Shown here piece by piece: positions 6,470 to 27,577 of a DNA stretch of 53,070 bases (the stretch's first letter is position 1; each line of letters begins with the position of its first letter). Below the pieces are notes generated by a model. It was not told the DNA's origin. It did no database searches and saw only the letters and a list, made by a program, of their open reading frames with translations. Where the stretch lies: positions 2,804-55,873 of the forward strand of contig NZ_PMZU01000021.1 in assembly GCF_003170075.1 (NCBI RefSeq), in the 5' to 3' direction. A program made the position numbers and the translations under genes. This DNA is from Methanoregula sp. (lineage in GTDB: Archaea; Halobacteriota; Methanomicrobia; Methanomicrobiales; Methanospirillaceae).

Positions 6470-7876
6470 TCAGAATCCCGGCTGCTCGCGGGCCTCCCAC
6501 TTTGCAAAGCCGAGCCGGGCAAAAAACACAGCAGGAATAAGGAGGAGGACGGCCCCGAGGGCAGCAAACGGTACGGCAAACGCGACCGCGGAGAGGACGA
6601 GGAGGGCGGCCCCGGTCAGGGCAAGGTACGTGACCATCACTTTGACATCATAGACAAGCACGCTCGGCGAAAGGCCGGTCAGCCAGACCGTGATCCCGAG
6701 GCTGTAGAACGAGAGCGAGAGGCAGAGCACGACCGCCGGGACCAGGTAGAGCGCCTGGCCGGAGAGGATGGAAACCGCCGCGATGAAGAGCGCAGGAATA
6801 ATCTGGAGGACAGAAAACGTGGTGATCTTGCTTTTGATGAGCGTCCTGACACTGACCGGGAGGCACGCGTAGGCCCCGAACGTGTCAAACATCGTAATCC
6901 ACGTGTACATGGTCGAGGCAATGACGCCGGTCACGAGCGCAAATTCGATGAGTACCCCGTAGGCGGGCAGGTAGCCCGAGAGGAGGGAGAGGAAGAACCA
7001 GATCACGACAAGCGGGATCAGAAACGAGAAGAGGGTCTGGCCGACCATGCCCCCGCTCCGGTACATATCGATGAGATCCTTTGCCGCAAGGGGCGGGTAA
7101 GGAAAGACGGAAAGTTTTCCGGTGAGCGGCACGAGCATGCTTTTGTGATGTTTTGCCACGCCGACCGTCTCGGGAGAGAAGAGCCAGATCGAGACAACAA
7201 AGAGGCAAACGATCGCGGCAAGGGAGATGAGAAGGCCGGTCCACGAGAACGCCAGAAAGAGGTTCAGCGGGGGATAGTAGACCGCCGGATTCTGCCCGGT
7301 GACAAGGTAGAGCGCTCCCGCGGCTACGGCAAGTATGGCGAGAATTGCCGCGAGCGCCGGCTTTGAGCGCGAGTAGACCGAGGAGAGGAAAAAGACGGCG
7401 CAGAGCCCGGACATAAACGAGAGCGTGAGGGTGAGGGCGAGGAGCAGCGGCAGGGTAACCGGGACGCCGATAAAGGGTGAGGCAAGCAGGAACCCGAGCG
7501 CTAAGGGGAGGACCCAGAGGACAAAGTAGTAGAGCGTGTCCTTGACGACAAAGTTTGCAAAGATGAACCGTTCGGAGAGCGGCAGGCTCCGTGCGGAATA
7601 GGAGAGCAGGCTTGCCTGCCCGAACCGCCGGTTCATCACCTCGCTCCCCAAGAGGCCGAACGCCCCGACCATAAAGCCGAGCATCAGGTAGTTTGCGTGG
7701 AGGATGAGCGAGAGTTCGCCGGCCGGCAGCGCCTGGCGCATGAGGGGCAGAAGAAACGAGCCCATGAACGCGATCCAGAAGATGAGGATCGGAAAAAGCG
7801 CAAAGGAGAGGCTCCCGAACATCGTCGAATGGACCCGCCACTCCTCCTTTACCATCGCAACAAAGAGTTCAGGCAT
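6470..7876 (-). CDS. ABC-2 type transporter permease
   Basis: About 468 residues with some twelve hydrophobic helices, such as LFPILIFWIAFMGSFLLPLM and LTLSFMSGLCAVFFLSSVY, form the membrane part of an exporter. The start is placed at ATG 7876 (MPELFVAMVKEEWRVHS); the frame remains open upstream to 7915 but would run deeper into the ATPase gene. From 7876 it overlaps the ATPase stop by 8 bases. With the ATPase it forms a two-gene exporter in the TetR-controlled operon. The substrate cannot be told; antimicrobial or metabolite export is common for such pairs. Confidence 0.8.
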   Translation of the reverse strand: MPELFVAMVKEEWRVHSTMFGSLSFALFPILIFWIAFMGSFLLPLMRQALPAGELSLILHANYLMLGFMVGAFGLLGSEVMNRRFGQASLLSYSARSLPLSERFIFANFVVKDTLYYFVLWVLPLALGFLLASPFIGVPVTLPLLLALTLTLSFMSGLCAVFFLSSVYSRSKPALAAILAILAVAAGALYLVTGQNPAVYYPPLNLFLAFSWTGLLISLAAIVCLFVVSIWLFSPETVGVAKHHKSMLVPLTGKLSVFPYPPLAAKDLIDMYRSGGMVGQTLFSFLIPLVVIWFFLSLLSGYLPAYGVLIEFALVTGVIASTMYTWITMFDTFGAYACLPVSVRTLIKSKITTFSVLQIIPALFIAAVSILSGQALYLVPAVVLCLSLSFYSLGITVWLTGLSPSVLVYDVKVMVTYLALTGAALLVLSAVAFAVPFAALGAVLLLIPAVFFARLGFAKWEAREQPGF

Positions 7877-8597
7877 GGGGGACCCTCTGCACGAGCGAGA
7901 GGAAAAATTCGTCAAGGTGCCGGTGGTCTGCCGTCAGGTCGGCCACGGTCCCGGTGTGGAGGAGGTTTCCCTTGTGCAGGATCGCAAATCCCGAACAGAT
8001 CTCCTCGGCGATTTCGAGGATATGGGTCGAGATGAAGATCGTGTTGCCGGCTTTCACATAGTCCCGGAGGTAGTCCTTGACGACATGCTGCATGATCGGG
8101 TCGAAATTGATGAGCGGTTCGTCGATCAGGGCAAGTCCGGGCTTGTGGATGAATGCCTGCACAAACATCAGTTTCTGGCGGGTCCCCCGGGAGAGGTCCT
8201 TGCAGAGCACGTCTTTCTTGTCCGAAAAGTCAAGGAAGTCAAACCACCATACGGCCTTTTCATCGATATCGGGGACCTTCCGTATTGCACCCACGAACTG
8301 CAGGTACTCGGTCGCCGTTAGAAAACTCGGGGGCGTCTCCTGCTCGGGGATGATCCCGACACGCTCCCGGACACCGACCGGATCGCTCTGGGTATCGATC
8401 CCCAGCACCGTTGCCGAGCCGGCAGTCGGCCGGATCTGGCCGGTCAGCATCTTTATCATCGTTGACTTGCCGGAGCCGTTCGGGCCTAAAAGGCCGTAGA
8501 GTGCCCCTTTTTCCACCGACAGGCTCACGTGGTTGACAGCCGTCAGATCCCCATACACTTTTGTGAGGGCTTCAGCCTCAATGACGTTTTTTGTCAT
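7869..8597 (-). CDS. ABC transporter ATP-binding protein (exporter type)
   Basis: The 242-residue ATPase has Walker A GPNGSGKST, the Q-loop GIIPEQETPP, a variant signature LSRGTRQKLM, Walker B LALIDEPLINFD and the switch histidine in FISTHILEIAEE. The layout is that of ABC-2 exporter ATPases. GGGGGAAACAG immediately precedes ATG 8597. It follows the TetR gene after 31 bases and precedes the permease with overlap, so it belongs to the same operon. Confidence 0.9.
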   Translation of the reverse strand: MTKNVIEAEALTKVYGDLTAVNHVSLSVEKGALYGLLGPNGSGKSTMIKMLTGQIRPTAGSATVLGIDTQSDPVGVRERVGIIPEQETPPSFLTATEYLQFVGAIRKVPDIDEKAVWWFDFLDFSDKKDVLCKDLSRGTRQKLMFVQAFIHKPGLALIDEPLINFDPIMQHVVKDYLRDYVKAGNTIFISTHILEIAEEICSGFAILHKGNLLHTGTVADLTADHRHLDEFFLSLVQRVPHA

Positions 8598-8628
8598 CTG
8601 TTTCCCCCGGATACTTCCTGTTCCATAT

Positions 8629-9270
8629 TCATCTGCTCCTTTTTTTTGTCGTCGTTATTTTGTGTGTTCCTCCGCAGGATTCCCCGTCCGGGTGCGCTGC
8701 GATGCCGTTCCAGATAAATGACAGTCCCTGCCGGGCAAGGAGTGCCCGCTGCCCGGGATCCGGGGATTCCATGATCCGGGCCGTAAGCCCGGAGAGCGAC
8801 GAGGCGAGCACCGAACAGAGAAGCCCGGTATCGCACTCCCTGAGGGTTCCTTCCCGCACCCCGTCTCTTACCAGTTCTTCTAAAAAGAGGAAGTGCGACA
8901 TCCCCTCCTCATGGGCGGTCGTGGAGACAAAGGGAGAATGGGCAAACTGTTCCATAAACCGGAACTCGTCCGGGCGGGTGGTCGCCCAAGCGAGCGCATT
9001 TTCCCCGACTTTACGGATCTTTACCTGCACAGTTGGTTCCCGGTCGACCCCTTCGCGGAGCGCGGCGGCAGCCTGGCTCTTGATCTGCCGGTAGAGGGTG
9101 TCAATCAGATCCTCTTTTGTTTTGAAATAAAAAAAGAGCGTACCGGTCGCGACCCCCGCCTCCCGGGAGATCATCGCCGTCGGAGTACCATAGAACCCCC
9201 GCTCGGTAAAGAGTGCAAGTGCGGTTTTGAGGATCGCGTCCCGCTTGTCGGTTGCCTCCACGCTGCTCAC
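8629..9270 (-). CDS. TetR/AcrR family transcriptional regulator
   Basis: The 213-residue protein begins with a TetR helix-turn-helix: RDAILKTALALFTERGFYGT, then MISREAGVATGTLFFYFKTKEDL. The remaining part is the variable ligand-binding domain. The start is GTG 9270, with GGAGG seven bases upstream, overlapping the TGA of the MBL gene (GTGA). It is the third gene of the operon starting at 11184, whose promoter carries an 18-base palindrome of TetR-operator type (11205-11222), so it probably represses its own operon until a ligand binds. Confidence 0.9.
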   Translation of the reverse strand: MSSVEATDKRDAILKTALALFTERGFYGTPTAMISREAGVATGTLFFYFKTKEDLIDTLYRQIKSQAAAALREGVDREPTVQVKIRKVGENALAWATTRPDEFRFMEQFAHSPFVSTTAHEEGMSHFLFLEELVRDGVREGTLRECDTGLLCSVLASSLSGLTARIMESPDPGQRALLARQGLSFIWNGIAAHPDGESCGGTHKITTTKKRSR

Positions 9271-9953
9271 AGCAGGGCCTCCAGTTGATCGCAGGTAAAC
9301 GGCCCGCCGTGACCGGTGTAGATGACTGTCGGGCGGGCGTCAAGGATCGTGCGAAGGCTCTTTTTTGCCGCGTCCATATCCTCAGCAAAGAGGGGAAGCC
9401 GGGGTTTGTGTGCCGGGAACATCCCCATCACAAGGTCGCCGATGATAACCTCGCCGGTTGCCAGCTGTACCGAGAGCGATCCCCGGGTATGGCCCGGGGT
9501 CGGAATCACGATGCCATCGATCCCGAACGCATCAAGCCGGTACGGGGCATCGACCCGGATCACCGGTTTTATCGCGAGCCCCGGGGCCGGGGCGTGCTTC
9601 CCGATCATGAGGGCGAGCATGCGGCCAAGAAGCGACGCGGGCACTGCCGGAAGAGTCGCACCCGTGGTAAGGGCATCAGCTTCGCTGCTATGGACGAGCA
9701 CCGGTGCGCCGGTCGCCCCGGCCAGGGCGGCAGCGCTCCCGAAATGATCGGTGTGAACGTGCGTGATGATGATGAGCGCAAGGTCCCAGGGCTTGTACCC
9801 CTCTGCCTGCAGGGCGGCAAGGATCTTCGGGGCGTTCCCTGGCAGGCCCGTGTCGACAAGGATCGGCCGGCTGCCCCGGATAAGAAACGCATTCGCGTGG
9901 CCGAGCGGGATCGGGCGGACGAGCGCATTTTGGGGAGAAGCCGCGTCAGTCAT
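9267..9953 (-). CDS. MBL-fold metallo-hydrolase
   Basis: The 228-residue cytoplasmic hydrolase has the metal-binding motif HVHTDHFG near residue 86, TPGHTRGS near 157 and a final TGHGG. These are the glyoxalase II/beta-lactamase-fold ligands, normally for zinc. The substrate is unknown. Start ATG 9953 overlaps the end of the aldo/keto reductase gene by eight bases and has AAGGGGGAAG upstream. Its place between a reductase and a TetR regulator suggests a role in handling the same compound. Confidence 0.88.
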   Translation of the reverse strand: MTDAASPQNALVRPIPLGHANAFLIRGSRPILVDTGLPGNAPKILAALQAEGYKPWDLALIIITHVHTDHFGSAAALAGATGAPVLVHSSEADALTTGATLPAVPASLLGRMLALMIGKHAPAPGLAIKPVIRVDAPYRLDAFGIDGIVIPTPGHTRGSLSVQLATGEVIIGDLVMGMFPAHKPRLPLFAEDMDAAKKSLRTILDARPTVIYTGHGGPFTCDQLEALL

Positions 9954-11184
9954 GGGACTTCCCCCTTGAAAAGGAGGCGCGGATTTTTGATGCCTTGTTC
10001 ATGCACCACAGGCCTCCTTTGAGCGCCGGCACGGCGACACGCATCCCGCCCTCCATATCGGCTTTCACATCCTTCATGAGCTGCGGGATCGGCAGGTGCT
10101 GGGGACAGGCCTTCGCGCACTTCCCACACTGCCGGCAGAGCCCGGCATACGAAACATCGCCAATGAGGCCCCCGTGCCGCCCGAAATAGTGGAACTTTGC
10201 GCTCCGGTCCTTCGGGAAGAGGTGGTGGGCGTTGTAGAGCGAGAAGCAGCCGGGGATATCGACGCCGGCCGGGCAGGGCATGCAGTACCCGCAGCCGGTG
10301 CAGCCGACTTTCATGAGCCGCCGGTAGGTCTCTTTGACCCGGCCGATTCGGGCAAGGTCGTCGGGAGTAAGCGACTGCGGGAGTGCAGAGCCGGCGACCC
10401 GGATGTTCTCATCGATGTGGGCCTCGTCATTCATGCCCGAGAGGACGACGGTCACCTCCGGGTGGTCCCAGACCCAGCAAAGCCCCCATTCGGCCGCTGA
10501 CCGTTTCTCCGGTGCCTCATCCCAGATTTTCTGTACCTCATCCGGCACCGGCCCGGCAAGGTTCCCGCCGCGTAGCGGTTCCATAATAATCACGGCGAGA
10601 TTTTTTCCTGCCGCATACCGGAGCCCCTCGGTCCCGGCCTGGTTGTTTTCGTCAAGGAAATTGTACTGGATCTGGCAGAACTGCCAGTCGTACGCATCGA
10701 CAATCACCTTGAACGCCGTGATGGTGCCATGGAACGAGAACCCGGCGTTTGTGATCTTCCCCTCGCTTTTTGCGCGGTCGAGAAACGCGAGCACGCCGAG
10801 TTTTGCCATCTTCTCCCAGCTCTCCTTGCTCATGCTGTGGAGCAGGTAGTAGTCGATATGATCGGTCTGTAAGGTCACGAGCTGCCGGGAGAGGATCCGG
10901 TCCATGTCACTCGCGGTGCGGACTTCCCAGTGCGGGAGCTTGGTTGCGATCCGCACTTTTTCCCGGTAACCGTCGAGAAGGGCACGTCCGAGGATCTGTT
11001 CGCTTTTGCCGAAATGGTAGGCCGGGGCCGTGTCGAAATAATTGACACCGGAATCGATCGCGTGCCGGATCTGCCGGATGGCGCGTTCCTCGTCAATCTT
11101 ACCGGATTTTTCCGGGAGCCGCATGCAGCCGAAGCCGAGGATGGAGAGCCGGTCTCCGGTTTTTGGGATGGTACGGTAGAGCAT
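9946..11184 (-). CDS. Aldo/keto reductase with C-terminal 4Fe-4S domain
   Basis: About 412 residues. Residues 1-275 are an aldo/keto reductase barrel (ILGFGCMRLPE; YFDTAPAYHFGKSE with the catalytic Tyr; the Lys in RIATKLPHW; YYLLHSMSKE). The C-terminal part carries cysteines of a ferredoxin-like domain: VGCTGCGYCMPCPAGVDIP and later LCRQCGKCAKACPQHLP. This is the oxidoreductase type found in many anaerobes. Start ATG 11184 is chosen because AGGTG lies five bases upstream. It is the first gene of the TetR-controlled operon; a TATA box lies near 11240-11247. Confidence 0.9.
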   Translation of the reverse strand: MLYRTIPKTGDRLSILGFGCMRLPEKSGKIDEERAIRQIRHAIDSGVNYFDTAPAYHFGKSEQILGRALLDGYREKVRIATKLPHWEVRTASDMDRILSRQLVTLQTDHIDYYLLHSMSKESWEKMAKLGVLAFLDRAKSEGKITNAGFSFHGTITAFKVIVDAYDWQFCQIQYNFLDENNQAGTEGLRYAAGKNLAVIIMEPLRGGNLAGPVPDEVQKIWDEAPEKRSAAEWGLCWVWDHPEVTVVLSGMNDEAHIDENIRVAGSALPQSLTPDDLARIGRVKETYRRLMKVGCTGCGYCMPCPAGVDIPGCFSLYNAHHLFPKDRSAKFHYFGRHGGLIGDVSYAGLCRQCGKCAKACPQHLPIPQLMKDVKADMEGGMRVAVPALKGGLWCMNKASKIRASFSRGKSHD

Positions 11185-11204
11185 GAGCACACCTGTTTGT
11201 ATAA

Positions 11205-11222
11205 ATTGACTGGTCAGTCAAT
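11205..11222. promoter_or_regulatory. Palindromic operator, probably for the operon's TetR regulator
   Basis: ATTGACTG-GT-CAGTCAAT is a perfect 8+2+8 inverted repeat starting 21 bases upstream of the aldo/keto reductase start codon. A TATA-like CCTATATAACAC at 11239-11250 would place transcription start inside it, so a bound dimer would block initiation. The TTGACTG half-site is typical of TetR operators (family knowledge). Binding by the 8629-9270 product is inferred. Confidence 0.7.
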
Positions 11223-11451
11223 ATGTCTGCATGCCATCCTATATAACACAAACGTGTTTATGCGCTCTATACCACAAAGATGAAATTAAATGTAACAAGA
11301 GTGACGACAAGCAGGACGCAGGAATGTTTCACCCCCTGCGGAAATTGATGATTCCCCCATCTGCCCGGCAATGAATCAATAGTATGGCGGATCGGTGCGC
11401 CCGGTCGAGAACACATGGCAAATCGTAAATACCACACTTAAGACATTAATC

Positions 11452-13194: not shown

Positions 13195-14301
13195 TCACGC
13201 GATCTTCCGGGACGGGTCCATCTGGACCTCGTGCGGGAGCCGGGCCAGTGCAACAGCGCCAAGCGCCCCGATAACCCCGTTTCCCCCATACAGGGAGGTG
13301 CCAGACTGCCGGGCTGCCACTTCAGCTGCGGCACGGTCGACTACCTCTTCCCGCACCAGCCTGCCGTACTCCCGCAGGTCCGCAGGGATCGTCATCCCTT
13401 TCCGGAATGCAAGGCCCCATTCCGGGGAAAGAGCTTCACTTTCAACAAACTCGCGGCTTATGGCCATCACCCGGTCAATCCGGTTCGGGAGGACGGCCAC
13501 CTCGATGTAACTTGCCGAGTTCCCGGCAGTCTTGTTCTGCAGGGTTTCGTTGAGCATCACGACATGGTGGCTGACAGGGAGCACAACCCGGCCCGCCGTA
13601 AGCCTTGTGAGCAGCGCAAGGGCAAGGGCAAAGGTCGCCCCCCCATCTTTTGAATCGGTATCGTCAACGCCAATTGTGAAATGAGAATACGCCTGTGTCC
13701 AGACGTTCCCCTCAACAATACCGTCTTTCTGGACCAGTTCGACGCGGGTGACACCCTCCGCCCGCGACATCATATCCGTAAGCGAGTATGCCGGGCCCCC
13801 GATGCAGCGGATCCGCTGGACGATATGATCGCCAGAGTGCCCGACACCGCAGATCCCGACCGCAGACAACGGAGGAAGCCCGATGGAAACCGTGGCATCA
13901 CCGATACGGGCACACTCGCGCAGGAGCGTCCCGTCACGTTTTACATCGGTGAGCACGCCCCCTGCCCGGGCATGGTGGTAGCCGCAGAACGCCGCACAGG
14001 CGCCGCTCATGCAGTCATGGAAGATCTCGACATGCTCGCCGTCCGTTGTGGTAAAGATCCTCCGGCAGGTGCTCTCGGGGATCGCGGAAATAGCCGCGTA
14101 CCGGGCGGCCGTTCTCCCGGATTTCTCTTTTTTTACAAGAACGCAGCCTTCCCGCACAAGACGGGTTACCCAGTCCTGCGCTGTGCTCCTCGGAATGCCG
14201 GCCGCCTTCTGGATATCGGTCACGGTAAAAAAACCGGCATCCTGCGTGAACTGGCGTATCAGGTGCAGGTATTCCCGCCGGTGTTCAAGCACGCTTGCCA
14301 T
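13195..14301 (-). CDS. HTH plus TiaS-like domain protein (candidate methanogenesis marker 11)
   Basis: From ATG 14301 the protein has 368 residues. Residues 1-75 look like a winged helix (FTVTDIQKAAGIPRSTAQDW, then VTRLVREGCVLV). Next comes EIFHDCMSGACAAFCGYHHA, which is Cys/His-rich. The C-terminal half has FTIGVDDTDSKDGGATFALA, close to the nucleotide-binding motif of TiaS, the tRNA-Ile2 agmatidine synthase, but it lacks the full TiaS architecture. The DDTD-containing family restricted to methanogens, 'methanogenesis marker protein 11', is the best guess. It overlaps the homoserine dehydrogenase end by 17 bases and is last in a five-gene operon. Its function is unknown. Confidence 0.7.
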   Translation of the reverse strand: MASVLEHRREYLHLIRQFTQDAGFFTVTDIQKAAGIPRSTAQDWVTRLVREGCVLVKKEKSGRTAARYAAISAIPESTCRRIFTTTDGEHVEIFHDCMSGACAAFCGYHHARAGGVLTDVKRDGTLLRECARIGDATVSIGLPPLSAVGICGVGHSGDHIVQRIRCIGGPAYSLTDMMSRAEGVTRVELVQKDGIVEGNVWTQAYSHFTIGVDDTDSKDGGATFALALALLTRLTAGRVVLPVSHHVVMLNETLQNKTAGNSASYIEVAVLPNRIDRVMAISREFVESEALSPEWGLAFRKGMTIPADLREYGRLVREEVVDRAAAEVAARQSGTSLYGGNGVIGALGAVALARLPHEVQMDPSRKIA

Positions 14302-15271
14302 AGTGGTCGCGGATATACAGGATATCGCCGATGATGGCGCTCGCCGTCTCGATCGAGCCTGCACCCCGCCCTGTAAGCGTAATTTCCTTTGCCATATCGG
14401 TCTCGATGGTCAGGGCGTTGAGCGTGCCTTCGACTACAAGCGGGTGGCTCTTCTCGATGAGCCGGGGTGAAACCCGCAGGATTTTTTTCTTTGGGATTGC
14501 CTCTGCGATCAGCCGGATGGTACAGTCCCCCTCCTCGGCAAGACGCAGGGCATCGGGCGTGAGCAGATCGATGCCGGTTAAATCAACATCGGCAAGTTTT
14601 GTCCCGTTGCCCCAAATCGTGTTCGCGAGGATCACCAGTTTGATCGCCGCATCAATCCCCTTGACATCGTAGGTCGGATCCGCCTCGGCATAGCCCATCT
14701 CCCGCGCCTCCATGAGTGCCTGCTCATAGGTCAGCCCTTCAGCAGCCATCCGGGTGAGGATATAGTTGCAGGTCCCATTGAGGACACCGTAGATTGCGAT
14801 GATCTCATTCCCGTTAAGACCGTCTTCGAGCGTGTGCATAATCGGGATGGCACCGCCGACCGTGGCCTCATACCGGAGCGCCACGCCCTTCTTTTTCGCA
14901 AGGGCTGACAACTCCTTGTACGCAAGGGCGATCGGCCCCTTGTTGGACGTGACAATGTGCTTCTTTTTTGCAAGTGCCGCCCTGATATACCCGAGTGCCG
15001 GTTCGCCGGTGAGCGCGTTTGTCGGTGTTACCTCGATAAGGACATCGTAATCCGCTTTTTTGATCACGTCCATCGCGGAGATCGCCGGGTCGCCGCACGC
15101 CCCGGTCCTGCGCTTGTGTTCGAGCACTGCCGCAATGTCGATGCCCTCATTACAGATGCACCCGCTCTTTGAATCCGCAATACCCGTGATAGTAATACCG
15201 GGATTCTTTGTTGCGATCATCTCAGCGACGCCGCGTCCCACCGACCCGAGGCCGATAAGTACAGCCTTCAT
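14285..15271 (-). CDS. hom: Homoserine dehydrogenase
   Basis: This 328-residue enzyme reduces aspartate semialdehyde to homoserine, the branch point to threonine and methionine. The Rossmann motif AVLIGLGSVGRGVAEMI is at the N-terminus; catalytic-region signatures are NGTCNYILTRMAAEGLTYEQ and MGYAEADPTYDVKGIDAAIK. It lacks a C-terminal ACT regulatory domain, but the gene immediately upstream encodes a free ACT-domain protein that overlaps it by four bases, so regulation may act in trans. NADP(H) would be the usual cofactor, and an NAD kinase gene lies in the same operon. Confidence 0.95.
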   Translation of the reverse strand: MKAVLIGLGSVGRGVAEMIATKNPGITITGIADSKSGCICNEGIDIAAVLEHKRRTGACGDPAISAMDVIKKADYDVLIEVTPTNALTGEPALGYIRAALAKKKHIVTSNKGPIALAYKELSALAKKKGVALRYEATVGGAIPIMHTLEDGLNGNEIIAIYGVLNGTCNYILTRMAAEGLTYEQALMEAREMGYAEADPTYDVKGIDAAIKLVILANTIWGNGTKLADVDLTGIDLLTPDALRLAEEGDCTIRLIAEAIPKKKILRVSPRLIEKSHPLVVEGTLNALTIETDMAKEITLTGRGAGSIETASAIIGDILYIRDHYGKRA

Positions 15272-18120: not shown

Positions 18121-18987
18121 TCAGTACTTCCCGATATACCGTGTAGGGATAAGGATCCTAATCGTATAGGAATTAAGGTACTGGGAATTGATGATAAAAT
18201 AATATCCCCGCTGGCCTTCAAAGAATTTTTCCGTCCACGGGCGGGGGTCGGTATTGCTGAGCGTGGCCGTAGGTACCACTTCTGCGTATTTGGGGGCTGT
18301 CGTCACCGCAGGTGTTGCCCGGGTAATGCCTGCCCAGAGGTCGGGATCGATCCCCCCGGGGGGTGAAATGCTTCGGACGATACGGTTGGGATCGGATGCA
18401 TCCATGACCTGAATGGAAAATTCCGAACTCACGCTGCCATATGATCCCTGTACTCCGCTATACGAGGTTCCCTGCCCCAAGGTGGGGGTTATTGCGATGG
18501 ATACTATTGTAGGTCCGGATTTAGGGCCGATCATGGGGTCGATGGTATAGGATAATTCCCAATAGGGGAAGGGGATATTTATTACCTGAGTGGTTCCGCT
18601 GTATTTTCCCGATATCGTTGCATATACTGTCAGGCTGGTGTCCGGCTTGGTCACATTGATCCGTGTACCCTGAGGCAGAGACTGGTTGGATGAGATGCCA
18701 TAGGTATCGGGATTGACAAAGGAGACGGTCTGGGTTTTTCCGTTCCATGTCGGCACCGGTGTAGGTGGGGTTGTGGGAGGGGTTGTAGGTGGAGGCGGGG
18801 ATGTGGTAATGATGGAAGTGATATTTGCGTATACAACAAGGGGAGGAGCGGTTATGGATGGAGTGGGTGTTACAAATGATAGACCGGTATTAACCGGCTG
18901 GCCGGTTGTTATCGGTTTGATGACAAACGCAATAACAAGAATGATGCAGAACGCCGCAATAGTGTACGTGATATCTTTTTTGTCCAT
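18121..18987 (-). CDS. Hypothetical membrane-anchored surface protein
   Basis: 288 residues with a single N-terminal hydrophobic helix, ITYTIAAFCIILVIAFVIKP, and no lipobox cysteine. A Thr/Pro linker (TTSPPPPTTPPTTPPTPVPT) follows, then a beta-rich extracellular domain ending in IRILIPTRYIGKY. The N-terminal anchor plus external domain could suggest a pilin-like or stalk protein, but no class III signal is clear. No family is recognised. It lies upstream of, and opposite to, the archaellum cluster. Confidence 0.72.
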   Translation of the reverse strand: MDKKDITYTIAAFCIILVIAFVIKPITTGQPVNTGLSFVTPTPSITAPPLVVYANITSIITTSPPPPTTPPTTPPTPVPTWNGKTQTVSFVNPDTYGISSNQSLPQGTRINVTKPDTSLTVYATISGKYSGTTQVINIPFPYWELSYTIDPMIGPKSGPTIVSIAITPTLGQGTSYSGVQGSYGSVSSEFSIQVMDASDPNRIVRSISPPGGIDPDLWAGITRATPAVTTAPKYAEVVPTATLSNTDPRPWTEKFFEGQRGYYFIINSQYLNSYTIRILIPTRYIGKY

Positions 18988-19207
18988 GACTGCCGCAGTT
19001 TTCTATTGTGGCGTTCATAAATAAAAAAGGATGACGTCTGGAGATTATGACCCGGATAGTACAAAAACCCGGTGCCCGTACGAGATTGCGAGGAAAAGCA
19101 CCATCCGGTCATAAAAATTTAAAACCCACCTGCTGCCCGGCAGAAAAACCGGGTCCTGCCCTCCAAAACAGAAAAAATCCCTGCCAGTCCCCGTGTTCCC
19201 GGGGGAA

Positions 19208-19240
19208 AGTATATTAACGAAAAACGGAATAATATAAAAT
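19208..19240 (+). promoter_or_regulatory. Promoter of the archaellum cluster
   Basis: AGTATATTAAC at 19209-19219 and AATATAAAAT at 19231-19240 are TATA-like. The first lies about 30 bases before ATG 19244, the spacing expected for a leaderless or nearly leaderless transcript. Confidence 0.5.
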
Positions 19241-19243
19241 GTT

Positions 19244-20122
19244 ATGGCGGTAAATCCGGATCAGGTCGACCACATCGTCGCAGTGGCTTCTGATGATGAT
19301 CCCGAGGTCAAGCTCCAGAACCTCGAACGGGAAGTTGACCTTATAAAAACCTCCATCAAGCGCCTGTTAATGGATATCAGGGAACGGATGAACGAACTGG
19401 AGAACCCGTTTACCCTGGAAGCCTCTGTCTCAGGAGTACCCGCTGATGCCGCCCATGATACCAAAAAAACTACACTGGAGGTCAGGGAAGCGGCTCTTAA
19501 TGCACGGGAATCAACACTTGATGCCGCTGCAACGGCCGAACTTGAGAGGAAAAGTAAAAGAGCAGTGCCGAAAATAAAAGAAGAGGCACTTCCCCCGGCA
19601 ATCTCTGATGAGAAACGGATTCCGGACGAGCAGATGCTCTCTCTCTTAAGGGGCCAGTTACCCATAAACGGCCATAAAACCGGCCAGAACACGCTTGCCA
19701 GCGAAAAACTCCGGCTCCAGAAAGTGTACAAACTGTTTAAGTGGACGAATGGGGCCATTAGCAAATTCGGGCACGACCGGCTTGATATTATCCTCGGATC
19801 GTACCGGATCATGGGATATATCTCACGGGAATCCTGTGATGAGATCAAGGAGATCTCCCGCCTGATGCCGGCAAACCTGGGAGACGAGCATGAGATCGAA
19901 CCGGATGAGTTTGTATCCGAACTGTATGCACTCAACCGGATACTCTCGCCCAACGATTCCTCCCTCGACCGGGATATGATTGAGGTCATGATGGAACAGC
20001 GCCAGCTGGTACTGCCGGCAAAAGAAAGATCGGAGGCACCGGAATTATCGGTTAAAGAACGGGGTCCTTCACGGAATGCGAGGAAAGACGAAGAGTGGAT
20101 GAACCTGCCGGACAGGATATAA
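19244..20122 (+). CDS. Archaellum-cluster protein of unknown family (arlC/D/E position)
   Basis: The 292-residue soluble protein has an N-terminal coiled-coil-like part (LQNLEREVDLIKTSIKRLLM), an Ala/Glu/Lys-rich middle, a compact domain at about 160-235 (VYKLFKWTNGAISKFGHDRL and DIILGSYRIMGYISRESCDE) and a charged tail. ArlC, D and E are coiled-coil cytosolic adaptors linking the motor to chemotaxis in Euryarchaeota, and this gene occupies the same place before arlH. The standard ArlD/E sequence signature is not seen, so assignment rests on position and coiled-coil character. Confidence 0.55.
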   Translation: MAVNPDQVDHIVAVASDDDPEVKLQNLEREVDLIKTSIKRLLMDIRERMNELENPFTLEASVSGVPADAAHDTKKTTLEVREAALNARESTLDAAATAELERKSKRAVPKIKEEALPPAISDEKRIPDEQMLSLLRGQLPINGHKTGQNTLASEKLRLQKVYKLFKWTNGAISKFGHDRLDIILGSYRIMGYISRESCDEIKEISRLMPANLGDEHEIEPDEFVSELYALNRILSPNDSSLDRDMIEVMMEQRQLVLPAKERSEAPELSVKERGPSRNARKDEEWMNLPDRI

Positions 20123-20125
20123 TCG

Positions 20126-20215
20126 ATGTCCGCCGAAGCGATTACGAATGCCCTGCTCCTGATTACTGCAGTACTAGCAACCACCGGTAATGGGGTTATA
20201 TATATCAACATATAA
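20126..20215 (+). pseudogene. Truncated ArlF/ArlG-type archaellum stator gene
   Basis: Four bases after the preceding stop, ATG 20126 opens a 29-codon frame MSAEAITNALLLITAVLA ending in TAA. This matches the conserved N-terminal helix of ArlF/ArlG proteins (typically MSAEAITTA.FLITA). The family continues with a beta-sandwich domain of over 100 residues, which is absent: only 34 bases separate the stop from arlH. What remains is the membrane helix alone, so it is a truncated relic or, less likely, a working microprotein. Confidence 0.65.
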
Positions 20216-20249: not shown

Positions 20250-20984
20250 TTGGCCGCGGATCTTTCCGATTCAAGGGGGGGCGAGGAACGGAAGATCATC
20301 TTGACCGGTAACAGCGAACTGGATAAGAAGATCGCCGATGGCCTTCCGGTGAGATCTCTCACCCTTATCGAAGGCGAGAATGACACCGGCAAAAGTGTTC
20401 TTACCCAGCAGATTATCTGGGGCGCCATGAAACAGGGTATGTCTGTTGACCTGTTTACTACGGAAAACACCAGCAAGAGCTTTATCAAACAGATGGAATC
20501 GATGAGCCTTGACATCTCCGAATATTTTGCATGGGGATATCTCAAGATCTTCCCGCTTCATATCGCAGGTTGCGAATGGAAAACAGAGGAGATGGATGGC
20601 GTCATGTCACGGCTGATTACCCATATCCGGAACAGCAAATCGCAGGTTGTTATTATTGATTCACTGACGCTCTTCACTGAATACGCCGAAACCGATACCA
20701 TCCTCACCTTCTTTACCAATTGCAAGTCACTCGTGGATCATGGCAAGACCATCCTTATCACGCTTCATACCTACGCATTTGAGGAAGATACCCTTGTGCG
20801 GATCCGTTCCATCTGTGATGCTCACCTCAATATGAAAAAAGCCCTCATCGGGGAAAAGTACCTCATGGTCATGGAAGTTGTAAAAGTCCGCGGTGCACAT
20901 AAGACAACCGGAAACCTTGTCAGCTTTGAAGTTCATCCGGGCTATGGTATAAAAGTCATCCCGTTGAGTTTTGCGAGGATCTGA
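20250..20984 (+). CDS. arlH: Archaellum motor regulator ArlH (KaiC-like ATPase)
   Basis: ArlH is a RecA/KaiC-fold ATP-binding protein that docks on ArlI and ArlJ beneath the membrane and controls archaellum assembly. The 244-residue sequence has a Walker A region LIEGENDTGKSVLTQQIIWG with GENDTGKS near residue 44, and Walker B QVVIIDSLTLF near residue 132. The start is TTG 20250, supported by GGAGGGTGA four bases upstream; no ATG is better placed. It is followed by arlI one base after its stop, so translation is probably coupled. Confidence 0.9.
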   Translation: MAADLSDSRGGEERKIILTGNSELDKKIADGLPVRSLTLIEGENDTGKSVLTQQIIWGAMKQGMSVDLFTTENTSKSFIKQMESMSLDISEYFAWGYLKIFPLHIAGCEWKTEEMDGVMSRLITHIRNSKSQVVIIDSLTLFTEYAETDTILTFFTNCKSLVDHGKTILITLHTYAFEEDTLVRIRSICDAHLNMKKALIGEKYLMVMEVVKVRGAHKTTGNLVSFEVHPGYGIKVIPLSFARI

Positions 20985-20985
20985 T

Positions 20986-22848
20986 ATGAGTGACCTGTCT
21001 GTCGCGGTAAACCTTCCGTTCAAACCCGAACCGGTCGATGCCGATCTCGACCTGTATGCGGATCTCGAATCGGACGCGTTGTTCAAGATGCTCCCGGCAA
21101 ATGCCAAAGAGTATGTTCAGAACAGCCCGCATCTCTTCGAATATCTCCACACTTTCCCGGTGAATACCTATGGCATCCCGCTCTTTTTATCGGAATTAAA
21201 AAAGGATCTCCTCGGCATGAAGGCCCCCAACATTATCTACCCGGTCAATGATACCACTTTTGTCCACATCCTGCCGGATCCGGATGACGTCAGGAACTTT
21301 TACATCCCTATCGAGCCCTCATTCCTGCACAGCGTCAGCGAGCTCCTGCCGGTCATCGAGACCAAACTCATTGATCTTATCGATAGCCTTGAGACAGATC
21401 CGACCACGGAGAAGGAACGAACAGAAGTCTTAAAAAAGATGCTGGCCTCAGTTGCGGTGATCAAGCCGCCCGGTGTTGATATAGCAAGCCTGACCCGGAA
21501 AGAAAACCATGGTGCAAAATCCAAACTGGTCACCTTCCTCAACACGGATTTTACTGCACAGAAAAAGATGAAGTCCGGAAAGAAGAGCAAGAATTTTCCC
21601 ATCACTCAGGATGGCAGGATCATCCTCACCAATATAGAGTACCAGGCAATCGAGTATCTCCTTGTCCGGGATAAAATCGATATGGGGGTCCTCAAGCCAT
21701 TCCTTTCCGACCCCTATATCGAAGATATTTCCTGTGACGGAGTAGGGCCGATCTTCGTCGAGCACAAGATCTTCAAGGGCCTTAAATCCGTTATCGAGTT
21801 CAAGGTATCAAGCGAACTGGATGATTTCGTGGTCAAGGTGGCGGAACGGATAAAAAGGCCCATCACGTACCGGAGCCCGATAGTCGATTCAACCCTCCCG
21901 GATGGTTCCCGTATCAACATCGTCTACGGCACCGCGATCAGCAAGCACGGGAGCAACTTCTCCATCCGTAAGGTGAACGAGGTGCCGCTCTCCATCCTCA
22001 ATATCATCGAAAATAACGGCCTCGATTATTTATCAGCTGCCTACCTCTGGATCTGTATCGAATACGGCATGTCTCTGTTTGTGAGCGGCGAAACGGCAAG
22101 CGGCAAGACCACGCTCCTCAATGCCATCACCACCTTCATCCCCCCTGAAAACAAGATTGTCACCATTGAGGACACTCCCGAGCTTAACCTCCCGCACCGG
22201 AACTGGGTACGCGAGGTGGCACTGGCAAAAGGCAAAGGGGAAGCGACCGGTTCTGGTGGGGAGGTCACCATGTTCGATCTCCTTAAGACCGCTCTGCATC
22301 AGCGTCCCAACCAGATCATTGTCGGTGAGATCCGTGGCGTTGAAGGAAACGTTGCATTTAGTGCGATGCAGACCGGCCACCCCGTGATGAGTACCTTCCA
22401 TGCGGCATCCGTGGAGAAACTGATCCAGCGTCTCTGCGGGGAACCCATCAATATCCCCAAGACGTACGTGGACAACCTCAACCTGGTCATCATCCAGAGC
22501 GCGGTAAAACGGCCTGACGGACAGGTCGTGCGCCGGATGATCAGCTGCAACGAAATGGTGGGATACGATGCAGAGACCGGGGGATTCACGTTTGTCCAGA
22601 TGTTTTCCTGGGAACCGGTTTCCGATACCTTTGTCTGGTCCGGGAAAGGCAGTTCATTTCTTCTCGAGAACAAGATCGCAACCATGCTCGGAATCCCGGA
22701 CAGCAGGAAATCTGAGATTTACCTTGAAGTGGAGAAACGCGCAAAGATCCTTGAACGTCTGCACAAGGCGGGGTACGTGAAATTCTGGGATCTCTTCCAC
22801 ATGATCACCAAGATCAAGAAACAGGGTCTCCTTACCATCGGTTCATAA
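20986..22848 (+). CDS. arlI: Archaellum motor ATPase ArlI
   Basis: The 620-residue type II/IV secretion-type hexameric ATPase drives both archaellum assembly and rotation. The N-terminal domain (1-240) precedes the core with FVSGETASGKTTLLNAITTF (Walker A), the Asp box IEDTPELNLPHRNW, Walker B IIVGEIRGVEGNVAF and the His box GHPVMSTFHA. The start is placed at ATG 20986 (MSDLSVAVNLPF), just after the arlH stop, rather than the in-frame ATG 20971 inside arlH. The next gene, arlJ, starts two bases after its stop. Confidence 0.95.
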   Translation: MSDLSVAVNLPFKPEPVDADLDLYADLESDALFKMLPANAKEYVQNSPHLFEYLHTFPVNTYGIPLFLSELKKDLLGMKAPNIIYPVNDTTFVHILPDPDDVRNFYIPIEPSFLHSVSELLPVIETKLIDLIDSLETDPTTEKERTEVLKKMLASVAVIKPPGVDIASLTRKENHGAKSKLVTFLNTDFTAQKKMKSGKKSKNFPITQDGRIILTNIEYQAIEYLLVRDKIDMGVLKPFLSDPYIEDISCDGVGPIFVEHKIFKGLKSVIEFKVSSELDDFVVKVAERIKRPITYRSPIVDSTLPDGSRINIVYGTAISKHGSNFSIRKVNEVPLSILNIIENNGLDYLSAAYLWICIEYGMSLFVSGETASGKTTLLNAITTFIPPENKIVTIEDTPELNLPHRNWVREVALAKGKGEATGSGGEVTMFDLLKTALHQRPNQIIVGEIRGVEGNVAFSAMQTGHPVMSTFHAASVEKLIQRLCGEPINIPKTYVDNLNLVIIQSAVKRPDGQVVRRMISCNEMVGYDAETGGFTFVQMFSWEPVSDTFVWSGKGSSFLLENKIATMLGIPDSRKSEIYLEVEKRAKILERLHKAGYVKFWDLFHMITKIKKQGLLTIGS

Positions 22849-22849
22849 C

Positions 22850-24487
22850 ATGCCTGAAGAGATTGCTCCCGCTGAAACACAGAAAGCGCCACCGGCCAGA
22901 TCGCTGCCGTTTGCCTCGCAGATCGCGGGACTCAAAGAGAAACTTGCCGGTATCCGGGAAAACAAGAAGATGGGTGCAGATCTTCTTTTCATGACCACAT
23001 ATATGGCATCGCTTGCGATTGCCAATGCAACCCGTCCAGAAATTTTCTCTTATGCGTCAAACCGCCACGAGTACATCTCGGCAAAATACATCGCCAAAGT
23101 CGATACGTTTGTAAAAAAATGGAACTATAGTTACGCGGAAGCCCTCTCCATCATTGCAGAGCGGACGCAGAACGATATTCTCAGGAGCATGCTGAACCGG
23201 TATGCCAGTTCCATCGATTCGGGAGTCCCGGATGAAGATTTCATGATCAATGAACTCTCGACTGTCCGCAGTGTCTACCGGAACCAGCTGGAGCAGGGAA
23301 TGTCCATGCTGCAGAAATGGGGAGATGCATATGTCGCCATGCTCCTCTCGGGGACCGTCATCGCCATCATCATCATGGTATCGGTGGTGATCTATACCCC
23401 CGGGGATATCCAGTCGACATTTGACATGTCGTATGCGATCATCCTTGCCATCTCAGTATTTGGTATCGTCCTTATGTATACGTCAGTCCCTGACGATCCC
23501 AAAACCCACGGGCTCCCTGGGCAAACATCAAAGGAGCAGAAGACTATTCACGCCATGGAAAGGATCATCGTCCCGCTCACGCTTGCTCTCGTTGTTATCC
23601 TTGCGATTCTTGGTGTCTCAGCAGGCCTGATTTTTATTCTCGTGGGTATCCTGATGGCCCCACTCGGTGTTGTCGGTTTTATTGATGACCACAATATTAC
23701 CCTGCGTGACAATGATTTTTCCGTATTTATAAGGAATTTCGGTGCGGTTATGGGTGGACAGGGAACAACCGCCGTGTACGCGCTGGGCAGCATAGACAGG
23801 AAATCACTCACCGCTCTCGAACCCCTGGTAAATTCCGTGTATTCAAAACTCAACCTGGGGCTCGATGAAAAACAGTGCTGGGACAAGTTTATCGGGGAGT
23901 CCGGAAGCAACCTCATCTACAAGTACCTTAACATTTACCGGGACACCGTAGCGCTCGGAGGGCCCCCGGAACCTATCGGCACTGTCGTGGGCTCATCGAT
24001 GTTCGAACAGACCCTGCTCCGGGAGAAGAAGGATATGCTGGCAAAAAGCTTTGTCGTGCTCCTTGTACCGATGCATATCGCCATGACCGGTATCTTTGTT
24101 GCGCTGTACCAGATCCTTCTGGTGCTCACCGGATCGATATCGAGCATGATGACCCAGTTTCAGAATACGCCGGCAACATCGGGCGGTCAGAGCGCCGGGG
24201 TCTCCATGGGGAACGTATTTAGCGGCGGGATGAATCTCTTTACCAAATTCCCGGCTGAAGCGATGCAGACCTATGTTGTCATCACGCTTGTCATCCTCAC
24301 CGCATCAAACATTATCGCCGCACGTATCGTAGGTGGGGGGGATCGATACATGTATTATTTCTACGCGGCAATATTCTGCACATTGACCGGACTTGTTTTT
24401 CTGGTGACTCCAATGGGGGTTGGTCTCTTCTTCAGTGCGGAAGCGCTGACGAATATGGGAGGCGGGGTATCCGGGACTGGTGTATGA
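22850..24487 (+). CDS. arlJ: Archaellum platform membrane protein ArlJ
   Basis: The 545-residue TadC/GspF-like membrane protein is the platform on which ArlI acts. Hydrophobic helices include VAMLLSGTVIAIIIMVSVVI, IILAISVFGIVLMYTSV and a block of helices in the C-terminal third; the cytoplasmic N-terminal region (20-160) has the helical bundle typical of the family. It completes the H-I-J motor core. Archaellin genes and an intact arlF/G are not in this window. Confidence 0.93.
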   Translation: MPEEIAPAETQKAPPARSLPFASQIAGLKEKLAGIRENKKMGADLLFMTTYMASLAIANATRPEIFSYASNRHEYISAKYIAKVDTFVKKWNYSYAEALSIIAERTQNDILRSMLNRYASSIDSGVPDEDFMINELSTVRSVYRNQLEQGMSMLQKWGDAYVAMLLSGTVIAIIIMVSVVIYTPGDIQSTFDMSYAIILAISVFGIVLMYTSVPDDPKTHGLPGQTSKEQKTIHAMERIIVPLTLALVVILAILGVSAGLIFILVGILMAPLGVVGFIDDHNITLRDNDFSVFIRNFGAVMGGQGTTAVYALGSIDRKSLTALEPLVNSVYSKLNLGLDEKQCWDKFIGESGSNLIYKYLNIYRDTVALGGPPEPIGTVVGSSMFEQTLLREKKDMLAKSFVVLLVPMHIAMTGIFVALYQILLVLTGSISSMMTQFQNTPATSGGQSAGVSMGNVFSGGMNLFTKFPAEAMQTYVVITLVILTASNIIAARIVGGGDRYMYYFYAAIFCTLTGLVFLVTPMGVGLFFSAEALTNMGGGVSGTGV

Positions 24488-24488
24488 C

Positions 24489-25751
24489 ATGAAGGAAAAT
24501 ATCCGCAGGCTGGTTCTTTTTGCAGTGATCGTGGGAACCGGTTCTGTAATGATCTTTGTGAATGTCCCGCTTATCGTGCTGCTACCCCTGATCATTGCGA
24601 TAGGTTTTCTCCTGCTGGTACTCCTCGGCTCGATCACGATTATAGAGATTAAAAATGCAGTTTCGAAACTGGCCTTGAAGAACCTGCGTCAGCAGCCATT
24701 CCTCAAAAAACTCGATTCCATAAAATTTTTCGAAAAGAAGACCACCCAAAAAAAAGATATCGGGGAGAAAAAGGGAGAGAAAAAAGCCCCGGCAAAACCG
24801 GCAGAGAAAACCAACGGGATCCGGTATCATCTCTCGTTACTGGGATCATCGGTCACCTCTTTTGGGAAGATCCTCACAGAGCGCAAAAAACCCGCCAAAA
24901 AACCCGACGAGATCAACAAACTGCTGGAACATACGATAACAGAAAAAGTCAGCAGGGTATCCGCACTTGACAGGGCCGCAGCAGCACCCTCAGCGTCCGG
25001 ATCAAAGCAGAGTGGTGCCAGCGGAGCAAGACCAGCGGAGAACAGGATGGAATCCGACCCGTTCCTGAAACTCTCGGGAGAGGAACTGGAAACCGGCCTG
25101 CTGGATGAGCTGCTGGATGAACAGGAACCGGCAGCAGAACCACACCCGGTGGGTCAAGCACATGCCGGGACAGACCCCGCCCTTTCCATGACGGCCCTGG
25201 AAATGCCAGTTCTGCCGGACGAGACTGCCGTTGATGCCGAAGCGATTCTCATAGCGAATGCAGATACCGGGTTCGAAGAACTTACAGATCTTGACGGTGT
25301 GGACGCGGTCGATGAAACACTGGGATATCTGGACAGCATAGACCTGGACGATATCAATCTGCTGGATGACAGAGGTATGCTGGAACCGACACCGCAGGCC
25401 CCTGTGTCGCAGGCTGGCGATCCGATGCAGGTATCAGATGGTTTTATTCCGGCGACCCCCTTCACTCCTGCCGGGGGATCAGGAAGCAATAGAGGTGACA
25501 ATCAGGGAGATCTATCTTTATTTGTTGCAGGCGGCGCCGCCCCGGGCGTTGATGATGATATGCTCAGCTCGCTTGCCACCGAGATCAAACATGTGAAAAA
25601 AGAGAAGGATGTCAGCCTGCTCCGTGAATTAAAAGATTTCAAGGCACCTGCGACAGATATCGAAAAGGAGCTTTCAGAAGTGTCGGAGCAGCTCTCCGCT
25701 GCAGGCAAAGGGGCAAAGAAGAAAATCCCGTCCCCACAGGGAATAAAATAA
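24489..25751 (+). CDS. Hypothetical membrane protein following arlJ
   Basis: About 420 residues. Two adjacent helices at the N-terminus (LVLFAVIVGTGSVMIFVNVP and LIVLLPLIIAIGFLLLVLLG) are followed by a strongly basic region rich in Lys (60-150), then an acidic, probably disordered part with Asp-rich stretches such as ETLGYLDSIDLDDINLLDD, and a final helix with heptad-like spacing. The gene overlaps arlJ, so it should be co-expressed with the motor. It matches no archaellum protein I know. The start is GTG 24480 or ATG 24489. Confidence 0.7.
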   Translation: MKENIRRLVLFAVIVGTGSVMIFVNVPLIVLLPLIIAIGFLLLVLLGSITIIEIKNAVSKLALKNLRQQPFLKKLDSIKFFEKKTTQKKDIGEKKGEKKAPAKPAEKTNGIRYHLSLLGSSVTSFGKILTERKKPAKKPDEINKLLEHTITEKVSRVSALDRAAAAPSASGSKQSGASGARPAENRMESDPFLKLSGEELETGLLDELLDEQEPAAEPHPVGQAHAGTDPALSMTALEMPVLPDETAVDAEAILIANADTGFEELTDLDGVDAVDETLGYLDSIDLDDINLLDDRGMLEPTPQAPVSQAGDPMQVSDGFIPATPFTPAGGSGSNRGDNQGDLSLFVAGGAAPGVDDDMLSSLATEIKHVKKEKDVSLLRELKDFKAPATDIEKELSEVSEQLSAAGKGAKKKIPSPQGIK

Positions 25752-25804
25752 ACCTGTGCAGCAGCATGGCAATCCGAAAACGTTGTTATATGAGAACCCG
25801 GGAA

Positions 25805-27577
25805 TTATTCGTCATCTGCGGCGTAGTAGTAATATTCGCCACGGCTCTTCTGTTCCCGGTCAAGGAATGAGTCAGGTTTGTTGATCCGGGGCCGGCCCGT
25901 CTGGTCGCGACGGAATGTAACGTCAAGCGTCTTTAAAAACCGGTTCATGCCGTCCCGCATGGCAAAGGGACCGGCCGCAGTTCCCTCAACACCAGGCTCG
26001 CCTTCAAAGACGAGGATCCGTTCGCTGATCATATCGATGAGATAGATATCATGATCGATGACGAGGATCGCTACCGCTTTTCCTTCTGCATGGTGCTTGA
26101 TGAGCCGGGTCACCTTCACGCGCTGCTCGACGTCAAGATGGGCGCTTGGCTCGTCGAGGATATAGAGATCCGCATCGCGTGAGAGGCAGGCGGCGATCGC
26201 CACACGCTGTAACTCTCCCCCGCTTAAGGTATCGACCGGTGACTGGAGAAGGGTCTGGAGTGAGAGGGGGTCGAGGATTTCATGCTGGTAGTACGAGGTG
26301 TCAAATTTGCTGGTGCACTTACGGAGGTACAGCTCGACAGAATCCGACGTATCCGACTTGATGTACTGCGGCTTGTAGGAGATCCGGAGCTTGACATCCA
26401 GGCTGCCGGTATCGGGTTTCTCAACACCTGCAAGCAGCTTCGCAAAGGTACTCTTCCCCATGCCGTTTGCCCCGATAACGCCAAGTACTTCCCCGGCTTT
26501 TATTGTTCCTCCCGAGATCGTGAGCCGGAAGGTATCGTACTTCTTGGTGAGAGCAGGAATCTCCACCAGATCCTCCCTTTTCGAGCCCTTCTCGTGCGCC
26601 CGCTTCTCAAAGACTACTTGTGAGTCCCGGAACCGTACGTTCTCTTCAGCGAGATATCCTTCAAGATACTGGTTGATACCAACCCGGACGCCTTTTGGCC
26701 GGGTGACGACACCAAAGACCGCAGGCTTGCCATACCCTACGTGCACCGTATCGGCAAGCATGTCGAGGATGGCAAGATCGTGTTCGACAATCACGACCGG
26801 GTGTTCCTTCGCCAGTTCGCGGATCAGTTTGGCCGCCGAAATGCGCTGGTAGATGTCCAGAAACGGCGTGATCTCATCCAAGAAATAGAGGTCGGCGTTA
26901 CGGGCGAGACAGGCGGCAATTGCCACACGCTGCAGTTCTCCCCCGCTCAGCGTGCTGACATGGTGGTCGAGGATTGCGTCAAGTTTGAGCACGGGGATGA
27001 GTTCTGCAAGTTTGCCCCGCTCGTCCGTGGTCTTAAGCAGCTCGCGGATCGTCCCGGTATAAACTTTTGGGATGAAGTCGATATACTGCGGCTTGACTGC
27101 GATCTTCTTACTCTTTTTTGAAACGGTCTGGAGGTAGTCGAAAAGCTCGGTCCCGGCGTAGCGTTTCAGGATCTCTTCCCACGCAACTTCGTTATCGAAA
27201 TTCCCGAGATTCGGGCGGAGTTGCCCGGAGAGGATCTTTACCGCAGTGCTTTTCCCGATACCGTTTGCGCCGAGGATACCGGTAACTTTTCCCTGTACCG
27301 GGATGGGAAGCCCATAGAGTGCAAAACCGTTCTTCCCGTACCGGTGGGTGGGGTGCTCGAGTTCTTCAGGCAGGCTTACGATATCGATGGCGTCGAACGG
27401 GCATTTCTTGATACAGATGCCGCACCCGACACAGAGTTCCTCTGATATGACAGCCTTGCCATCCTCACCAATGACAACGGTCTCGTCACCGGTCCGTACC
27501 CGGGGGCAGTAGAGGATACACTCGGTTCCGCACTTCTTCGCGTGGCAGCGATCCTTATGGACAATGGCGATTCTCAT
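25805..27577 (-). CDS. ABCE1/Rli1 ribosome recycling factor
   Basis: ABCE1 splits ribosomes after termination and after rescue by pelota. The 590-residue protein has two N-terminal 4Fe-4S clusters (KDRCHAKKCGTECILYCPR and LCVGCGICIKKCPFDAIDI). Two ATPase domains follow: GANGIGKST and LSGGELQRVAIAACL in the first, GANGMGKST and LSGGELQRVAIAACL in the second, with Walker B YFLDEITPFLD and YILDEPSAHLD. Architecture and length are standard. It lies on the opposite strand from RqcH and pelota, with the EMC6-like gene 21 bases upstream in the same direction. Confidence 0.96.
   Translation of the reverse strand: MRIAIVHKDRCHAKKCGTECILYCPRVRTGDETVVIGEDGKAVISEELCVGCGICIKKCPFDAIDIVSLPEELEHPTHRYGKNGFALYGLPIPVQGKVTGILGANGIGKSTAVKILSGQLRPNLGNFDNEVAWEEILKRYAGTELFDYLQTVSKKSKKIAVKPQYIDFIPKVYTGTIRELLKTTDERGKLAELIPVLKLDAILDHHVSTLSGGELQRVAIAACLARNADLYFLDEITPFLDIYQRISAAKLIRELAKEHPVVIVEHDLAILDMLADTVHVGYGKPAVFGVVTRPKGVRVGINQYLEGYLAEENVRFRDSQVVFEKRAHEKGSKREDLVEIPALTKKYDTFRLTISGGTIKAGEVLGVIGANGMGKSTFAKLLAGVEKPDTGSLDVKLRISYKPQYIKSDTSDSVELYLRKCTSKFDTSYYQHEILDPLSLQTLLQSPVDTLSGGELQRVAIAACLSRDADLYILDEPSAHLDVEQRVKVTRLIKHHAEGKAVAILVIDHDIYLIDMISERILVFEGEPGVEGTAAGPFAMRDGMNRFLKTLDVTFRRDQTGRPRINKPDSFLDREQKSRGEYYYYAADDE

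Follow-up and report, generated by a model that had tools for sequence, protein, structure and literature searches.

The nearest described counterparts of the short open frame considered here are the archaellum stator proteins ArlF and ArlG (FlaF and FlaG); a filament of ArlG is described in PMC8667602. The frame shares the N-terminal 18 residues of ArlF and the C-terminal 11 residues of ArlG, and it lies at the same site before arlH. It differs from the pair in lacking both beta-sandwich domains (~290-315 residues together), and with them the regions responsible for S-layer binding or for building the ArlG filament (PMC8667602). Motility genes have likewise been lost by Methanococcus maripaludis in syntrophic culture, where swimming was without benefit and frameshifts arose in an archaellum regulator (PMC8319347). 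Those were laboratory point mutations in a regulator, whereas the genome described here shows natural gene deletions.

The window (the whole stretch of 53,070 bases that was analysed; G000:C57:2804-55873) belongs to a draft genome of 1,921,434 bases in 77 contigs, 96.81% complete by the value supplied. It was compared with 38 other Methanoregula genomes, 39 in all with that of the window (G000). Among these are G034 and G035, which we take to be Methanoregula boonei and M. formicica.

The archaellum locus and its three gaps

In M. boonei the gene order is NAD kinase, inositol phosphatase, eIF5A, g18121, two archaellins, arlD/E, arlF, arlG, arlH, arlI, arlJ, a gene X, then cheF, cheY, cheB, cheA and further genes of the che operon, with ABCE1 beyond it. 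The same order is found in the window, except that the archaellin block, the stator block and the che operon, three blocks in all, are missing. The genes g18121, arlD/E, arlH, arlI, arlJ and the one that follows stand in the window's order in the clusters of both M. boonei and M. formicica, and ABCE1 flanks the window locus as well; unlike those clusters, the window is without archaellins, arlF, arlG and the che operon. In a tree of ABCE1 the window groups with the intact M. boonei, apart from the other genomes that have lost parts of the locus, and its species is the sister of M. boonei among the genomes compared. Since this sister carries all three blocks in the same gene order, the window can be taken to have lost them. 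The features of the locus are as follows.

18988-19243, no strand: first gap, the archaellin site, 256 bases; relatives have 1-3 archaellin genes here, ~2.1 kb in M. boonei
19244-20122, plus strand: arlD/E-like gene, first in the remaining operon; weak PF04659 match below the cut-off, syntenic homologue in relatives
20126-20215, plus strand: fusion frame arlF::arlG, 29 codons, ATG to TAA
20126-20179, plus strand: 5' remnant of arlF, codons 1-18 (MSAEAITNALLLITAVLA), matching the ArlF starts of relatives at the syntenic position
20180-20215, plus strand: 3' remnant of arlG, last 11 codons (TTGNGVIYINI) and stop, matching how ArlG ends in relatives, at the protein and the DNA level
20250-20984, plus strand: arlH, full length, TTG start; NCBIfam ArlH 267 bits, cut-off 215
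20986-22848, plus strand: arlI, motor ATPase, full length; NCBIfam archaellum motor ATPase 718 bits, cut-off 550
22850-24487, plus strand: arlJ, membrane platform, full length; NCBIfam ArlJ 748 bits, cut-off 570
24480-25751, plus strand: gene X after arlJ, full length, assigned by synteny; 36-55% identical between species, no family match over the cut-off
25752-25804, no strand: third gap, the che operon site before ABCE1, 53 bases; relatives have cheF-cheY-cheB-cheA and more here, ~6.7 kb in M. boonei
25805-27577, minus strand: ABCE1-type ABC ATPase gene, a flank marker of the locus in relatives

The second gap, between arlD/E and arlH, measures 127 bases in the window against ~1.04 kb in M. 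boonei. The remaining operon has kept its own promoter region: about 75 bases 5' of arlD/E, including a TATA-like stretch, align with M. boonei. In the relatives displayed, arlH has an ATG at the position of the window's TTG start or beside it.

Two genes of the locus are of less familiar kinds. The product of g18121 (18121-18987, minus strand), a neighbour of the archaellins in relatives and 48-66% identical to its counterparts there, begins MDKKD, has a hydrophobic N-terminus and matches no family. Gene X (24480-25751, plus strand) encodes a protein that has a hydrophobic region near the N-terminus and is acidic and variable in the middle; the gene follows arlJ in the Methanoregula loci read. 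In M. boonei it is apparently shortened to 276 codons by a frame change or an early stop (14290-15120 of the G034 excerpt, reverse complement), and the sequence 3' of the shortened frame still resembles the remainder of the protein.

The 29-codon frame before arlH

In Methanoregula loci that can be read through the interval, two full genes, arlF and then arlG, are found 5' of arlH. The ArlF proteins of relatives have ~155-178 residues and start MSAETITTALFLITAVVAAGVL..., a few bases 3' of arlD/E. Their ArlG proteins have ~156-177 residues, start MAVAEIIGAA... and end TTGNGVYAAAYL or similar. Both proteins are full length in 30 other Methanoregula genomes, as judged by profile searches.

In the window this interval holds the frame at 20126-20215, which translates as MSAEAITNALLLITAVLATTGNGVIYINI and then stops, with 34 bases between its stop and arlH at 20250; a reading of the sequence without databases (hereafter the sequence-only reading) had described it at these coordinates. 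Its ATG lies 3 bases 3' of the arlD/E stop, the same as in intact arlF. The first 18 residues match the ArlF start MSAETITTALFLITAVVA..., which is conserved at the same place in related genomes, and a profile built from the ArlF proteins of relatives picks up the stub over positions 1-19 (14.5 bits, E = 0.04), its single match in the genome. The ArlF-type helix recognised from the sequence is supported by these first 18 residues, and its motif is present in homologues at this position. The last 11 residues agree, in the arlG frame, with the ArlG C-termini of relatives (TTGNGVYAAAYL, TTSNGVYSSAYL and similar). The motif T[TSA][GSNA]NG[VIA], which covers the start of this tail, has a single occurrence when all six frames of the 53 kb window are searched, the one in the stub.

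Comparison at the DNA level gives the same picture. A stretch of 97 bases from window position 20083 matches intact loci at up to 85%, and the DNA matches listed all end at or before ~20181, with the exception of one short match inside arlH. From 20180 onward the sequence matches the ends of arlG. Codon 18 of arlF is therefore followed directly by the codon that stands eleventh from the end in arlG, with the reading frames of both genes preserved, and the deletion has a size of ~0.87-0.95 kb (869-947 bases missing, as estimated from 14 relatives). Because both gene ends are recognisable and in frame and the bases between them are missing, the frame is best read as a scar, left when a single deletion fused the start of arlF to the end of arlG, rather than as the truncation of one gene. 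The earlier description as a truncated arlF/arlG-type gene holds for the ArlF start; the tail after it is the C-terminus of ArlG and not random read-through. Likewise, the loss of a stator gene proposed from the sequence stands as a loss, but one that would have taken arlF and arlG together.

The beta-sandwich, correctly noted as missing, is gone twice over, that of ArlF and that of ArlG. Of a full-length ArlG, with its N-terminal helix and beta-sandwich, the last 11 codons alone are left. The frame has the marks of a deletion pseudogene: intact orthologues stand in place in relatives, both ends can be recognised at the junction, and there is no full-length copy elsewhere in the 96.8% complete draft. 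It most likely exemplifies the evolutionary loss of motility and not a new kind of gene.

The sequence-only reading had also raised the possibility that the helix is kept as a microprotein. The 29 residues, as a membrane helix, would then serve some function of their own. The frame is open, it starts 3 bases after arlD/E as intact arlF does, and a hydrophobic core is present. This core is cut short, however: the first 18 residues of the N-terminal helix are ArlF-like, and the best 19-residue hydropathy of the stub is 1.83 against 2.31-2.57 in intact ArlF. Two residues that are otherwise invariant in 15 relatives are changed (T5A and F11L). The partners it would have had in the archaellum, among them archaellins and ArlG, are all gone, as is chemotaxis, and no comparable short frame is found in the loci of relatives. 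With the helix both cut and mutated and its partners absent, a microprotein kept for its own sake is very improbable.

Missing families and remaining genes

The losses seen in the locus extend to the genome as a whole. Archaellin family PF01917, which also catches ArlF and ArlG, has no match in the window genome and is present in 36 of the 39 genomes of the genus. The ArlF profile matches nothing in that genome beyond the stub and the ArlG profile has 0 matches, which speaks against the idea that a stator copy lies elsewhere. CheF (26 of 39 genomes), the CheA dimerisation domain (27 of 39) and the chemoreceptor signalling domain (32 of 39, mostly in several copies) are absent as well. Of the parts expected in a functional archaellum, the motor core ArlH, ArlI and ArlJ is present, and the archaellins and the stator of ArlF and ArlG are missing. 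A prepilin peptidase is found, as are two further matches to the secretion ATPase family besides ArlI, which makes it probable that other type IV pilus-like systems are still present.

These absences are consistent with a recent, secondary loss of swimming, of which the stub would be a non-functional scar; a probability of roughly 0.78 is given to this explanation. In its favor, two recognised gene ends are fused in frame, the gene order is conserved in relatives, and most of the other genomes in the genus do have archaellin, ArlF, ArlG, CheF, CheA and chemoreceptors. Three deletions would have struck the archaellum-chemotaxis locus, removing the archaellins, arlF with arlG, and the che operon, and the second of these would have brought codon 18 of arlF into one frame with the tail of arlG, leaving the 29-codon scar. 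The scar may still be translated, coupled to upstream arlD/E, and would have no function of its own. The genes arlD/E, arlH, arlI, arlJ and X would be leftovers that are beginning to gather amino acid changes. The timing of the deletions, like their order, is presumptive: the leftover genes would still be open because the loss was recent.

Since the genome is a draft of 77 contigs and the species is represented by this single assembly, the losses might be apparent only, with true arlF and arlG genes collapsed in assembly and the other missing genes left in unbinned contigs. The junction has been seen in that assembly alone, and this also counts against the loss of swimming; a DNA search for it in other genomes of the genus or in a second assembly found none. 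The junction lies inside a contig of 55.9 kb, though, and joins non-homologous positions of arlF and arlG in frame. The other two gaps also join genes within the same contig, and six families are absent at 96.8% completeness, among them the chemoreceptors, of which most relatives have several copies. An artefact of assembly or binning is improbable because losses at three separate points and the unlinked chemoreceptors agree.

The genes that remain bear on the loss of swimming in both directions. The arl genes left, ~5 kb, contain 0 stops and 0 frameshifts. In a codon model of six genomes, omega for arlD/E, arlH, arlI and arlJ together was 0.085 on the window branch and 0.035 elsewhere (p = 9e-5), with synonymous sites near saturation and single-gene values unstable for arlD/E and arlJ. 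A four-taxon model was set aside in favor of this six-taxon run, as its synonymous sites were saturated and its values unstable. The dN/dS of these genes is thus about 2.4 times that of the other branches, and constraint persists. Omega for the same genes is not raised on the M. boonei branch (p = 0.5). On the window branch, the rise is not significant for the control ABCE1 (p = 0.11) or for inositol phosphatase, eIF5A and g18121 taken together (0.085 against 0.042, p = 0.21). As a rough guide, a value of 0.085 would correspond to ~5% of the branch without constraint, provided that the rest of it was under the same constraint as the other branches. With no stop or frameshift in ~5 kb and omega far below 1, the remaining genes were under constraint along most of the branch, which weighs against the loss of swimming; so does the higher value of the second control set, though its rise is not significant.

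The rise in omega on the window branch, in contrast, counts in favor of the loss of swimming, and counts of private amino acid changes point the same way. For the window against its sister M. boonei, with G068 as the outgroup, changes found only in the window and only in M. boonei number 25 and 12 in arlD/E, 21 and 7 in arlH, 34 and 22 in arlI, 26 and 36 in arlJ, and 26 and 8 in X. Summed, the arl genes have 132 and 85 such changes and the controls 65 and 75 (Fisher p = 0.009), a modestly raised rate. Sites invariant in relatives are changed 10 times in ArlI and 5 times in ArlH; most of these changes are mild, and they do not exceed those of the most diverged relatives. One of them, R443H in ArlI (numbered from a TTG at 20971), stands out and also speaks for the loss. 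It falls in the LRQRP motif, which immediately precedes Walker B and reads ALHQRPN in the window; arginine is found at this position in the 19 other aligned ArlI proteins and in Sulfolobus FlaI.

The same genes can be viewed as a core of ArlD/E, ArlH, ArlI, ArlJ and X that has been selected, without filament or stator, for another task in a methanogen that does not swim, such as assembling another pilin, secretion or surface sensing. The in-frame scar would then preserve translational coupling to arlH. All five genes are full length and, for arlD/E, arlH, arlI and arlJ, mostly constrained (omega ~0.085); whole modules were deleted and the core was left, and deletions that end between genes or in frame would be expected of a selected core too, a further point against the loss of swimming. 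The prepilin peptidase implies that some type IV pilin system exists. Such a core would hardly be expected to show an amino acid rate raised on the window branch and not on that of M. boonei, a substitution in a conserved motif of its ATPase (R443H), or a TTG start in arlH, and the two further secretion ATPases mean that other pili need not borrow ArlI. A new task for the core is accordingly considered unlikely, though it is the leading alternative to the loss of swimming.

If swimming was lost, the window would show stepwise loss of the archaellum caught part-way, with filament, stator and chemotaxis gone and the motor genes still readable.

Other losses in the genus

In other members of Methanoregula (G067, G045, G065 and G047) the locus has undergone separate losses, partial or complete, and these are counted in favor of a loss of swimming in the window. 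With several independent and different losses, the window's included, the genus could help to show which parts of a rotary machine go first, and if its ATPase core is ever put to another use. Two further candidates, G015 and G087, have an arlI match without a PF01917 match, but were set aside as their contigs end just 5' of arlH.

The archaellum cluster is absent from G065 and G047. The former is taken to be Candidatus Methanoregula pelomyxae, an endosymbiont of an amoeba with a chromosome of 1,949,073 bp (PMC10579272). Like the window genome it is reduced to 1.9 Mb and lacks ArlF, ArlG, CheF and CheA (G065:C1:1910000-1929500). Unlike it, the endosymbiont has no arl-type ArlI match and retains one match to the chemoreceptor domain (1818170-1818622). 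Its loss would be independent of that in the window, because it sits on a separate branch of the ABCE1 tree. Loss of the motility locus is not described in the main text of PMC10579272, where 'archaell' has 0 occurrences and 'motil' 1.

In G067 (G067:C16:84000-102000, 7432-11363) arlD/E and a complete arlF are followed directly by a cheB without its first 37 residues. The genes arlG, arlH, arlI, arlJ, X, cheF and cheY are missing from this locus, and an arl-type ArlI is absent from the genome. Archaellin-family matches occur elsewhere in that genome. The partial loss in G067 is thus complementary to that of the window. In G045 (G045:C53:14000-32000), archaellin and arl genes are present, and CheF, CheA and chemoreceptors are absent from the genome. 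Gene X and ABCE1 lie ~1.4 kb apart there.
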